A stretch of 64,000 nucleotides of DNA, taken from Ruminococcus hominis. Its GTDB lineage: Bacteria > Bacillota > Clostridia > Lachnospirales > Lachnospiraceae. Position 1 is the stretch's first letter. Each line of letters opens with the position of its first letter. The stretch covers positions 1,736,001 through 1,800,000 of the forward strand of contig NZ_JACOPE010000001.1 in NCBI RefSeq assembly GCF_014287355.1, read 5' to 3'. Below are positions 53,757-62,610 of this stretch, one piece after another. Position numbers and translations under genes: made by a program. The notes under the pieces were generated by a model. It did not search any database, was not told the origin of the DNA, and saw only the letters and a program-made list of their open reading frames with translations.

Positions 53757-53821
53757 TTTATCTCAGTGGGAGTCCAATCTCCGACTGAGATAAACGCTCC
53801 GCGAGGATGCACAGTGATTCT
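53757..53821 (+). repeat. Dispersed repeat, copy A (internally shortened)
   Basis: TTTATCTCAGT pairs with ACTGAGATAAA, enclosing GGGAGTCCAATCTCCG, followed by AACGCTCCGCGAGGATGC and ACAGTGATTCT. It matches copy C at 62446 except that the T-bulge hairpin between CTCAGT and GGGAGTCC is missing and the right-hand hairpin is truncated at GTGATTCT. It lies in the 3' untranslated region of the PBP gene. Confidence 0.8.
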
Positions 53822-53837
53822 AAAAATATTACAAAAA

Positions 53838-53874
53838 GAAATCCGGCAAAGGTATATTTCCCTTGTCGGATTTC
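53838..53874. terminator. Terminator between PBP and hprK
   Basis: 15-bp stem with near-perfect pairing (53838-53852 with 53860-53874), then TTTTTA; A-rich on the other side, so likely bidirectional for the convergent hprK. Confidence 0.82.
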
Positions 53875-53894
53875 TTTTTATATCTCATTTAATA

Positions 53895-54824
53895 TTATCT
53901 GTTCTTTGCAAGATTCTCCTGTACTCTCTTATATAATTCCTGAGCTGCGTTATATCCCATCTGTTTTTGTCTATGGTTGACAGCTGCTGATTCTACTATA
54001 ATGGCAAGATTACGTCCCGGACGGATTGGAATATTATGGCATACCACTTTATTTCCAAGGAATTCTGTATAACTTTCTTCAAGTCCTAAACGATCATATT
54101 CTTTTTCTCTGCTCCAGTCTTCCAAAGTAATAACCAAATCAATATTCTGCGTTTCACGTACACTTTGAACACCAAACATAGATTTTACATCCACGATACC
54201 AATACCTCGAAGCTCGATAAAATGTCTTGTAATATCCGGTGCTGAACCTACAAGTGTCTCATCACTTACTTTACGAATCTCCACCACATCATCTGTCACA
54301 AGACGATGTCCACGTTTGATCAGTTCCAAAGCGGCCTCACTTTTTCCTATGCCACTCTCACCCATAATCAAAACACCAACACCATAAACATCCACTAATA
54401 CTCCATGAATAGAAATACATGGCGCAAGTTTTACGTTCATCCAACGAATCAATTCTGCCATAAATCCAGATGTCTGTTTTTCTGTCTGAAAAATCGGAAT
54501 ATCCTGTTTCGCTGCTTTCTCGATAAGTTCCTTATCCGGCTCCAGATTTCTGCTAAATACAATACAAGGAACTTTATATGTCACCAATTCATCGTATATT
54601 TTTATCTTTCTTTCATAATCTAAAGTCTGCAAATAAGTGTATTCCACGTATCCGATAATCTGCACACGATCTGAATCAAAATGATCAAAGAAACCTGATA
54701 GCTGTAATGCCGGTCTGTTTACCTCCGGAATACTTACCTCTTTTCCTTTCAACTCAACTGTTGGTGTCAGATTTTTTAATTCCATTTTTTCTGCTAATTC
54801 ACTTAATTTCACACCATGTCCCAT
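53895..54824 (-). CDS. hprK: HPr kinase/phosphorylase
   Basis: 309 aa master regulator of carbon catabolite control in Firmicutes: phosphorylates and dephosphorylates HPr at Ser46. Walker A GESGIGKSEAALELIKRGHR near residue 154, catalytic LVTDDVVEIRK, and the HprK signature ELRGIGIVDVKSMFGVQSVR near 202 are intact. AGGAG is 7 bases before ATG. Confidence 0.96.
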   Translation of the reverse strand: MGHGVKLSELAEKMELKNLTPTVELKGKEVSIPEVNRPALQLSGFFDHFDSDRVQIIGYVEYTYLQTLDYERKIKIYDELVTYKVPCIVFSRNLEPDKELIEKAAKQDIPIFQTEKQTSGFMAELIRWMNVKLAPCISIHGVLVDVYGVGVLIMGESGIGKSEAALELIKRGHRLVTDDVVEIRKVSDETLVGSAPDITRHFIELRGIGIVDVKSMFGVQSVRETQNIDLVITLEDWSREKEYDRLGLEESYTEFLGNKVVCHNIPIRPGRNLAIIVESAAVNHRQKQMGYNAAQELYKRVQENLAKNR

Positions 54825-54910
54825 AACTTTTCTCCTCTTCTAGCTATTATTTTCATTCATTTTACTGTAGTCTTTGGACTTTTTAGCTTAGCTTTGTATC
54901 TATTTTAACA

Positions 54911-60674: not shown

Positions 60675-60770
60675 AAAATAGGACTGTACTTTCCTTTATC
60701 TAAGTATACTTTTTGTAATTTAGGGGAATATAACAAATTTACTTTAGAGATTTATACTAAGGAGGATAAT

Positions 60771-62399
60771 ATGGCAGTAAAATATGTATTTGTCACCGGA
60801 GGTGTCGTATCCGGTCTTGGAAAAGGAATCACAGCAGCATCTCTCGGTCGTCTTTTGAAGGCCCGCGGATATACTGTGACAATGCAAAAATTTGATCCTT
60901 ATATTAATATTGATCCGGGAACAATGAATCCCGTTCAGCACGGAGAAGTCTTCGTAACAGATGATGGTGCTGAAACAGACCTTGACCTTGGACATTATGA
61001 ACGTTTTATCGATGAGAATCTTACTAAGAACTCGAATGTCACAACAGGTAAAATTTATTGGTCTGTATTACAGAAAGAACGTCGTGGCGATTTCGGTGGA
61101 GGTACCGTTCAGGTTATTCCACATATTACAAACGAGATCAAAAGCAGATTTTACCGTAATCCTGCTGCTACAGATACTGAAATCGCGATTATTGAGGTCG
61201 GTGGTACTGTCGGAGATATTGAGAGTCAACCATTTCTTGAATCCATCCGTCAGTTTCAACATGAAAAAGGAGCAGAAAATGTTATTCTGATCCACGTTAC
61301 TTTAATTCCTTACCTGAGAGCATCTCAGGAGATGAAAACAAAACCAACTCAGGCAAGCGTAAAAGAATTGCAGGGAATGGGAATTCAGCCGGACATCATC
61401 GTATGCCGCTCTGAATACCCATTGGACGCGGGAATGAAAGACAAAATTTCTTTGTTCTGCAATCTTCCTGCTAATCATGTATTGCAAAACCTTGATGTGG
61501 ATTACTTATATGAAGCTCCACTTGCTATGGAAAAAGAGCACCTGGCACAGGTTGTCTGCGAATCCCTGCATTTGCCTTGTCCAGAGCCAAATTTAAAAGA
61601 CTGGACAGAAATGGTAGATAATTTGCGTCATCCGACACAGGAAGTTACTGTTGCACTTGTCGGAAAATACATCCAGCTTCATGATGCTTATATCAGTGTG
61701 GTAGAAGCATTAAAGCACGGAGGTATCTATAGTCATACTACTGTAAATATCAAGTGGGTTGATTCTGAAACTGTTACATCTGAAAATGTGGAAGAAATCC
61801 TTGGTGATGTAAGCGGTATTTTAGTACCTGGCGGATTTGGAGATCGTGGTATTGAAGGAAAAATCGAAGCAATTAAATATGCCAGAACACATAATGTTCC
61901 ATTTCTTGGTCTTTGCCTTGGTATGCAGCTTTCTATTGTTGAATTTGCAAGAGACGTTATCGGCTACAATGATGCTCACAGCATGGAATTAAATCCAAAT
62001 ACAACGCATCCTGTCATCCATATTATGCCTGACCAGATTGGTATCGAAGATATCGGAGGAACATTAAGACTCGGATCATACCCTTGCGTACTGAAAGAGG
62101 ATTCTAAAGCTTATGCATTGTATGGAACAAAAGATATCAACGAACGTCATCGTCATCGTTATGAAGTCAACAACGATTATCGCGAAGTATTGGAAGAGAA
62201 CGGCATGATGCTTTCAGGTCTTTCTCCTGACGGACGTATTGTAGAGATGATTGAAATTCCATCTCACCCTTGGTTCATTGCAACACAGGCACATCCTGAG
62301 TTAAAATCCAGACCAAACAAACCACACCCACTATTCAAGGGATTTGTGGAAGCATCTTTAAAATTTTCAAATACAGCATCAGGAAAGACGCTTTCCTAA
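60771..62399 (+). CDS. pyrG: CTP synthase
   Basis: 542 aa: synthase domain with GGVVSGLGKGITAASLGRLL at residues 10-29, MQKFDPYINIDPGTMNPVQH and GEVFVTDDGAETDLDLGHYE; C-terminal glutaminase with LVPGGFGDRG near 350, nucleophile Cys in FLGLCLGMQ near 383 and the HPE end of the triad in ATQAHPELKSRP. Makes CTP from UTP and glutamine. AGGAGG precedes ATG; no leader attenuator is evident. Confidence 0.97.
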   Translation: MAVKYVFVTGGVVSGLGKGITAASLGRLLKARGYTVTMQKFDPYINIDPGTMNPVQHGEVFVTDDGAETDLDLGHYERFIDENLTKNSNVTTGKIYWSVLQKERRGDFGGGTVQVIPHITNEIKSRFYRNPAATDTEIAIIEVGGTVGDIESQPFLESIRQFQHEKGAENVILIHVTLIPYLRASQEMKTKPTQASVKELQGMGIQPDIIVCRSEYPLDAGMKDKISLFCNLPANHVLQNLDVDYLYEAPLAMEKEHLAQVVCESLHLPCPEPNLKDWTEMVDNLRHPTQEVTVALVGKYIQLHDAYISVVEALKHGGIYSHTTVNIKWVDSETVTSENVEEILGDVSGILVPGGFGDRGIEGKIEAIKYARTHNVPFLGLCLGMQLSIVEFARDVIGYNDAHSMELNPNTTHPVIHIMPDQIGIEDIGGTLRLGSYPCVLKEDSKAYALYGTKDINERHRHRYEVNNDYREVLEENGMMLSGLSPDGRIVEMIEIPSHPWFIATQAHPELKSRPNKPHPLFKGFVEASLKFSNTASGKTLS

Positions 62400-62410
62400 T
62401 ATAAGACAAT

Positions 62411-62438
62411 AAAAAAAGAGCCACGCGGCTCTTTTTTT
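62411..62438 (+). terminator. pyrG terminator
   Basis: AAAAAAAGAGCC pairs with GGCTCTTTTTTT around ACGC; perfect and usable from both strands. Confidence 0.92.
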
Positions 62439-62445
62439 ATTATTA

Positions 62446-62610
62446 TTTATCTTAGTCGAGAAGACTCCCACCTCTTCAGGTGGTGAGTAATAGCAAATTT
62501 GTCTCAGTGGGAGTCCAATCTCCGACTAAGATAAACGCTCCGCGAGGATGCGCAGTGATTCTGATAGGAATATGTCAGCTTCGCTGACCAGAATCACGCG
62601 CTAAGTCTCA
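62446..62610 (+). repeat. Dispersed repeat, copy C (most complete), IS200/IS605-like ends
   Basis: Outer arms TTTATCTTAGTCG (62446-62458) and CGACTAAGATAAA (62523-62535) pair over 13 bp. Inside, ACTC-CCACCT and AGGTGG-T-GAGT form a hairpin with a CTTC loop, a bulged T and an unpaired C at the ACTC/CCACCT join (62464-62488), which competes with GACTCCCAC/GTGGGAGTC pairing (62463-62471 with 62507-62515). To the right is CTCCGCGAG, then a long hairpin: GTGATTCTG (62555-62563) with CAGAATCAC (62589-62597), enclosing GTCAGC-TTC-GCTGAC (62574-62588). The far end reaches the lysA stop codon. No ORF is inside. Confidence 0.8.

Follow-up and report, generated by a model that had tools for sequence, protein, structure and literature searches.

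The 64,000-nucleotide stretch of the Ruminococcus hominis genome considered here (contig NZ_JACOPE010000001.1, positions 1,736,001 to 1,800,000; hereafter the window) carries three copies of a short structured repeat, which a first-pass annotation had read as a non-autonomous element derived from the IS200/IS605 insertion sequences (IS). Copy A is at 53757 on the plus strand, copy B runs from 56843 down to 56775 on the minus strand, and copy C is at 62446 on the plus strand. As that annotation had noticed, the three share long blocks (94-97% identity over 34-72 nucleotides (nt), with a best E value of 1e-25 within the set searched), and every copy begins immediately 3' of TTTAT (53757-53761; 56843-56839 on the minus strand; 62446-62450). 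The placement of the copies behind a stop codon or a T-run is also as described: copy A lies directly 3' of the stop codon of a penicillin-binding-protein-like gene, and copies B and C lie 3' of a hairpin and T-run behind ftsH-like and pyrG-like genes, respectively. These gene names, like that of the uvrC-like gene near copy B, are readings of translations and not family-search hits. The parts of the three copies are as follows, R1 being the 92-nt structure model described below.

53757..53761, plus strand: copy A, TTTAT target pentamer, directly behind the TAA stop codon at 53754-53756
53757..53794, plus strand: copy A, P1 hairpin of a short form without the IS605-like hairpin; arms TTTATCTCAGTGGGAG (53757-53772) and CTCCGACTGAGATAAA (53779-53794), 15/16 pairs
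53795..53821, plus strand: copy A, left portion of the conserved core, matched in part by the model (20.4 bits); the remaining core and the right end are missing
56839..56843, minus strand: copy B, TTTAT target pentamer, within the T-run 3' of the ftsH-like gene
56800..56825, minus strand: copy B, IS605-like left-end hairpin with bulged T
56775..56790, minus strand: copy B, second direct repeat TTTGTCTCAGTGGGAG; end of the copy, 13 nt before the uvrC-like start codon
62446..62450, plus strand: copy C, TTTAT target pentamer, after a terminator-like hairpin 3' of the pyrG-like gene
62464..62488, plus strand: copy C, IS605-like left-end hairpin ACTCCCACCTCTTCAGGTGGTGAGT, bulged T at 62484
62498..62513, plus strand: copy C, second direct repeat TTTGTCTCAGTGGGAG
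62520..62535, plus strand: copy C, right arm of P1, its terminal ATAAA complementary to TTTAT (internal guide)
62534..62626, plus strand: copy C, conserved core and right end (R1, 97.1 bits; copy C is among the 20 training copies of R1)
62603..62624, plus strand: copy C, right-end hairpin AAGTC...GACTT, with a changed sequence where other copies terminate in CTTGAA

Copy C is nearly complete and consists of TTTAT, the bulged-T hairpin (13 nt from the TTTAT, as first noted), a long P1 stem with ATAAA at the end of its right arm, the conserved core and the right-end hairpin. Its folding is far above that of shuffled sequences both as RNA (z -7.0) and as DNA (z -6.6). The copies differ in the modular way that had been pointed out, the first hairpin being absent from A and copy B stopping at GTGGGAG, and two corrections can be made to the earlier description: copy A is also without a right end (its match to R1 is partial, 20.4 bits, E 0.03), and the right end of copy C is changed, reading GACTTTATT where complete copies have CTTGAA or CTTGAC. 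Copy A is a short form truncated within the core and copy B a left end only, both of them decayed remnants. The long form contains an imperfect 16-nt direct repeat (TTTATCTTAGTCGGAG and TTTGTCTTAGTGGGAG in Hominisplanchenecus faecis), and a deletion between the two repeats would yield the form seen in A. No transposase is evident in the window, in line with the earlier description; four TnpA/TnpB queries gave nothing convincing over its 64 kb, with a best E value of only 0.50. The protein of the uvrC-like gene is 89% identical to one from Lachnospiraceae bacterium UBA1683, the next best match being 83%.

A family with a conserved, structured core

Copies are also found well outside the window, a point on which the first-pass annotation had made its reading depend. 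As a DNA query, copy C matched 3 of 8 genomes and then 12 of 61 relatives of Hominisplanchenecus faecis, that genome included (G008, the genome of locus L070; G and L numbers denote genomes and loci), which alone holds 49 matches, some of them partial or on opposite strands at the same place. Of the 79 genomes around G011, that genome included, 9 contain the motif ACGCTCCGCNNGGATGC and none its reversed control. An alignment of 37 copies from the window and 11 genomes was assembled, and R1 was built from 20 copies (the window and six genomes). With default filters R1 finds copies in six genomes that were not used for its training (G011, G012, G013, G017, G028 and G037; E 1e-12 to 5e-4) and misses the divergent copies L182, L184, L149 and L156; with filters off, the L197 copy, an insertion identical with that of L182, reaches 46.9 bits (E 6e-11 over 601 bases). 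At E<=1e-4, R1 matches at least 122 of 397 genomes from the family of G008, as against 1 of 398 from its phylum, namely G008 itself; since at most 10 candidates per genome were scored under stricter filters in the family scan, these counts are lower bounds. About one in three of the family's sampled genomes has a relative of the element.

A chance repeat is ruled out by the similarity of the window copies together with the R1 matches across genomes. A phage or plasmid origin was likewise rejected, as copy C had no match in phages or plasmids and three specific patterns were absent from viral contigs; a degenerate pattern picked out 92 viral stretches, the best with an R1 E value of 0.012, and these were excluded from the counts. 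The parts available to us of the literature on small mobile repeats, IS605, structured RNAs and template switching hold no description of the family, which may be among the unnamed candidates of a microbiome RNA survey such as PMC8040213.

The short form of the element measures about 120 nt and the long form about 175 nt, and longer ones also occur. An additional hairpin, an optional module some 50 nt in length (CGACCG + GGAACGAAG), sits at the same place within the core in two genomes, G008 (L098, L102, L108, L161) and G007 (L089, L091, L095, L097, L099, L101), and at two loci (L364:501-877 and L454:1440-1682) two copies of the same orientation lie close together, where tandem insertion is possible. 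Among 58 distinct aligned copies, in an alignment that was itself fitted to R1, 23 of 28 pairs have changed on both sides, and 256 covariation cells stand against 61 in shuffles. An unfitted alignment (A2) gives cells (38 vs 10) and a covariation score above all 500 shuffles; in it, the number of pairs changed on both sides was reached by 16 of the 500 and the number of pair types by 225.

While the surrounding stems change, the bases of CTCC...GGAT and GGAAnAT are constant across genomes. This constancy favours the view that the core is a transcribed RNA, either a guide RNA for a nuclease acting in trans or a splicing RNA like that of an IStron, with the transposon ends as its carriers only. 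We consider this unlikely on balance. At gathering score no Rfam family, group I introns included, matches the window, and in loose mode, over eight loci, the only hits were an FMN riboswitch, tRNAs and one sub-threshold ctRNA, all of them outside the element; group I introns were missing there too.

Precise insertion and a putative internal guide

The surroundings of the copies argue for mobility. Ten copies retrieved from G359, on one 3.5-Mb contig, have between them two distinct 95-nt cores; the left flanks of the nine that possess a long left end are unrelated, with an average likeness of 28%. A short-form relative of 123 nt in G034 occupies the end of an IS605 tnpA on two contigs (L197, L198), and an intact tnpA copy of that genome (L193), 97.5% identical to the L182 copy, reads TTATAT^CGAGA, which is an exact empty site; the element has entered between TTATAT and CGAG (the junction is ambiguous by one base), nothing is duplicated, and a single substitution lies nearby. 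An approximate empty site comes from a G007 copy (L085) compared with loci of two other species (L035, L028), with 76-78% identity over the joined flanks and small gaps at the junction. That empty sites would reveal no target duplication, as the first reading required, is thus borne out by one exact and one approximate case, and the absence of duplication is also a property of the IS200/IS605 family in the portion of PMC7290912 available to us. A non-mobile origin, by which an ancestral cis-regulatory RNA or terminator was duplicated along with genes, would be in keeping with the mostly intergenic position of the copies and their partial co-orientation with the neighbouring genes (left gene 36/54, right gene 38/54). 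It is hardly credible in view of the near-identical cores with unrelated flanks and the exact insertion into a transposase gene with an intact paralogue, the exact empty site having already refuted it.

The insertion point lies 3' of TTTAT, TTTAA or TATAT. In keeping with the T-rich target that had been proposed, these pentamers or T-rich variants precede most of the 61 left arms examined, and the pentamer was not preset in this test (78 motif matches gave 61 left arms, and some of the other 17 are not family members); another set, chosen beforehand for pentamers of this kind, was left out of the count. At 276 of 305 positions the pentamer in front of the left arm matched the complement of the guide at the foot of P1; when guides were shuffled among copies, uncorrected for relatedness, the mean was 208 and the maximum 225 in 2000 trials. 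The match is perfect in 44 of the 61 copies, one base off in 9, and at 3 or fewer bases in 8 (L257, L371, L260, L212, L217, L239, L246 and L153). Targets and guides have changed together, the pairs including TTTAT/ATAAA, TTTAA/TTAAA, TATAT/ATATA and TTTTT/AAAAA, and this complementarity and covariation suggest, at the level of sequence, that the guide may have a part in the choice of landing site. In IS608, a guide at the base of a hairpin reads the target by pairing with it (excerpts of PMC5934647).

The sites themselves avoid genes, with exceptions: an open frame of at least 100 codons runs across the joined flanks at 16 of 55 sites, compared with 94% of 880 random points in the same loci, and one insertion into tnpA is known. 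Any preference for terminators is weak, with a stable fold upstream at 17.5% of 57 sites and 8.8% of control pentamers. At L171 and L418 the flanks are, by eye, the complementary arms of one hairpin with a T-run, so that the element seems to have entered the loop of the hairpin.

Dispersed near-identical cores with unrelated flanks, precise insertion, complementarity of pentamer and guide, covarying structure and an IS605-like left hairpin all support a mobile element. The repeat is probably a non-autonomous one that transposes, like IS200/IS605 elements, in single-stranded form. A candidate Y1 transposase, supplied in trans, would fold and cut one strand; pairing of the guide with the flank would place the left cut and the right-end hairpin could serve the right cut, after which a circle would re-insert 3' of a pentamer that pairs with the guide. 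Any role of the conserved core is putative. With IS200/IS605 elements such as IS608 and ISDra2, and with their non-autonomous palindrome-associated elements (PATEs), the repeat has in common a T-rich 4-5-mer 5' of the insertion, the lack of a duplication, a bulged left hairpin and a guide sequence that would pair with the left flank; it differs from them in its conserved 92-nt core, its optional left hairpin, its unrelated right end and its separate, fully complementary guide at the foot of P1.

Within a major gut family, roughly one sampled genome in three carries a structured mobile element without an Rfam match. As its targets and guides have changed together, it offers a natural test bed for DNA-guided target choice, and a natural comparison of guides and targets of a kind that the work on IS608 had to engineer. 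It also raises the question of why a gene-less transposon keeps a conserved 92-nt fold, and whether this fold is read as DNA or as RNA.

The helix of pentamer and guide would, were the core an RNA, be its P1. The sequences behind which group A IStrons insert are TTGAT, ATTAT or TTTAT, and in group I introns the 5' flank is paired with an internal guide (both from the available text of PMC4227781). IStrons have in common with our element a structured unit with transposon ends, TTTAT-type targets and a helix of the 5' flank with an internal guide. Unlike them, it contains no group I intron by Rfam, is much smaller and lies in gene-avoiding sites, where splicing is not visibly exploited. The U-G pair of a group I P1 is replaced by T-A (by eye), and the mismatches do not favour RNA, as G-T (30), more frequent than A-C (16), is not above C-T (30).

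The guide RNAs of TnpB (omega RNAs) are also structured and stand at the right end of an element; in such a likeness, the target pentamer would presumably equal the target-adjacent motif. The element differs from them in having no Rfam match, in that no copy was seen at the 3' end of tnpB (loci L081-L250, tblastn with one TnpB query), and in that 8 of the 22 element-bearing genomes have no TnpB match, among them G178, whose fetched copy is on a 2.9-Mb contig. TnpB is matched in the other 14 of the 22, and in the same scan it was seen near copies only where a copy is inside an IS605 (L182, L184, L197, L198), adjoins one (L178) or consists of a 36-nt relic some 900 nt beyond tnpB (L164). A TnpA-TnpB relic is also seen by eye near a copy at L160.

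Candidate transposases and copy-specific stems

Y1_Tnp matches are present in 18 of the 22 element-bearing genomes. We surveyed 18 Y1 loci, the left side being shown for 14, and a repeat-type hairpin was found at four of these (L388, L389, L391, L405). The left-end hairpin is common to the TnpA-encoding IS605 of G195, G375 and G034, to one G046 locus and to the long-form repeats, and the IS605 of G375 agrees with the repeats of that genome in its target and almost entirely in its left hairpin. When four IS and four repeats were aligned, the hairpins were similar and the foot was AGAATT or AGAAAT with TTTAA and AGAAGA with TTTAT; that these AGAA-foot bases follow the target agrees with the guide logic of IS608, as far as PMC5934647 was accessible to us. 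Of the tnpA element with the same ends that the first-pass annotation had sought, left ends resembling the bulged-T hairpin exist, and right ends differ. The two conditions under which that annotation would have been refuted, one on copies and related transposase ends elsewhere and one on target duplications, were both decided in its favour.

Several points count against movement in the IS200/IS605 manner or against a simple derivation from that group. The remaining 10 of the 14 Y1 left sides have other ends. The right hairpin of the element ends in CTTGAA or CTTGAC, unlike the GGTCAC or GTTCAC of the IS605 copies seen, and matches neither these right ends nor its own left hairpin (by eye). 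Short forms without the IS605-like hairpin also insert precisely, and the 92-nt core is not IS605 sequence and is conserved beyond the needs of a pair of ends. No transposase was seen within any copy, and no left end of this TTTAT type was seen at the Y1 loci examined in G008 (L164, L117, L124) and G359 (L397). The one IS left end of TTTAT type, at L248 and L249 in G046, precedes an open reading frame that runs to the contig end and is identified by no model. The guide shuffle ignores the relatedness of copies, and independent target types are few. Lastly, four of the 22 genomes (G011, G020, G345, G406) have no Y1_Tnp match of any length; their copies are on many contigs, so the assemblies may be incomplete. 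Taken together, the element appears to work like IS200/IS605 and in its long forms shares a left end with it, and the original reading is partly supported, being largely right on the dispersed copies, T-rich target, lack of duplication and left hairpin; actual derivation from IS200/IS605, to which the right end, core, short forms and genomes without Y1_Tnp are opposed, is a candidate only.

Two possible parents, the IS605 of G008 (L164) and the relic beside a copy (L160), were rejected, as their left ends differ. The G046 reading frame was not called TnpB, having one sub-cut-off Pfam hit and no NCBIfam hit. At L160:1796-2325 in G008 (the same place as L088 and L124) a copy is followed by a TnpA-TnpB deletion relic of an IS605 at the contig end, and at L178 in G035 an IS605 with target TTTAA directly adjoins the right end of a divergent element copy.

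The mobiliser could instead be a REP-associated tyrosine transposase (RAYT), with the repeat as a REPIN-like element and IS605 TnpA not involved. REPINs are similarly small, mostly extragenic, hairpin-forming and of high copy number, without a transposase of their own. G019 carries a RAYT-like gene (L180:1066-1878, minus strand; NCBIfam REP_Tyr_transpos, 70.5 bits against a cut-off of 80) with a decayed copy about 400 nt upstream, and in G178 and G231 the only Y1 matches are of RAYT length. We nevertheless think this quite improbable: L180 is the only one of seven RAYT loci checked that has the repeat nearby, the other six (L114, L122, L125, L179, L183, L185) having no copy within the fetched flanks, so that among the loci checked there is no consistent RAYT neighbour; the element is not a doublet of short palindromes as in REP; and four genomes (G011, G020, G345, G406) give no Y1_Tnp match of any length.

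In G011, and less clearly in G012 and G028, copies with a common core each have their own stem of 12-22 bp, in which the right arm is a near-exact complement of the left. The left arms of eight G011 copies are 54% and their cores 77% identical, and pairing is 96% with a copy's own left arm and 59% (at most 86%) with those of the others. The left arm of such stems appears to merge with the local flank, and at L207 and L202 the stem complement extends, by eye, into bases of the neighbouring terminator's own arm. It is conceivable, although we would give it little credence, that the guide is rewritten at each landing, the left flank being copied into the element by hairpin-templated synthesis that would provide a guide for such sites; template switching can reportedly create and maintain hairpins (PMC8794818). 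These copy-specific stems may alternatively reflect ordinary compensatory change. For an empty-site comparison, the only genus mate of G011 (G069) was alignable no further than the gene end. In G143 and G375, two copies (L438:1425-1505 and L445:1750-1836) have an extended palindrome of about 25-30 bp per arm in place of the asymmetric long form, and these palindromised copies look like frozen products of such copying.

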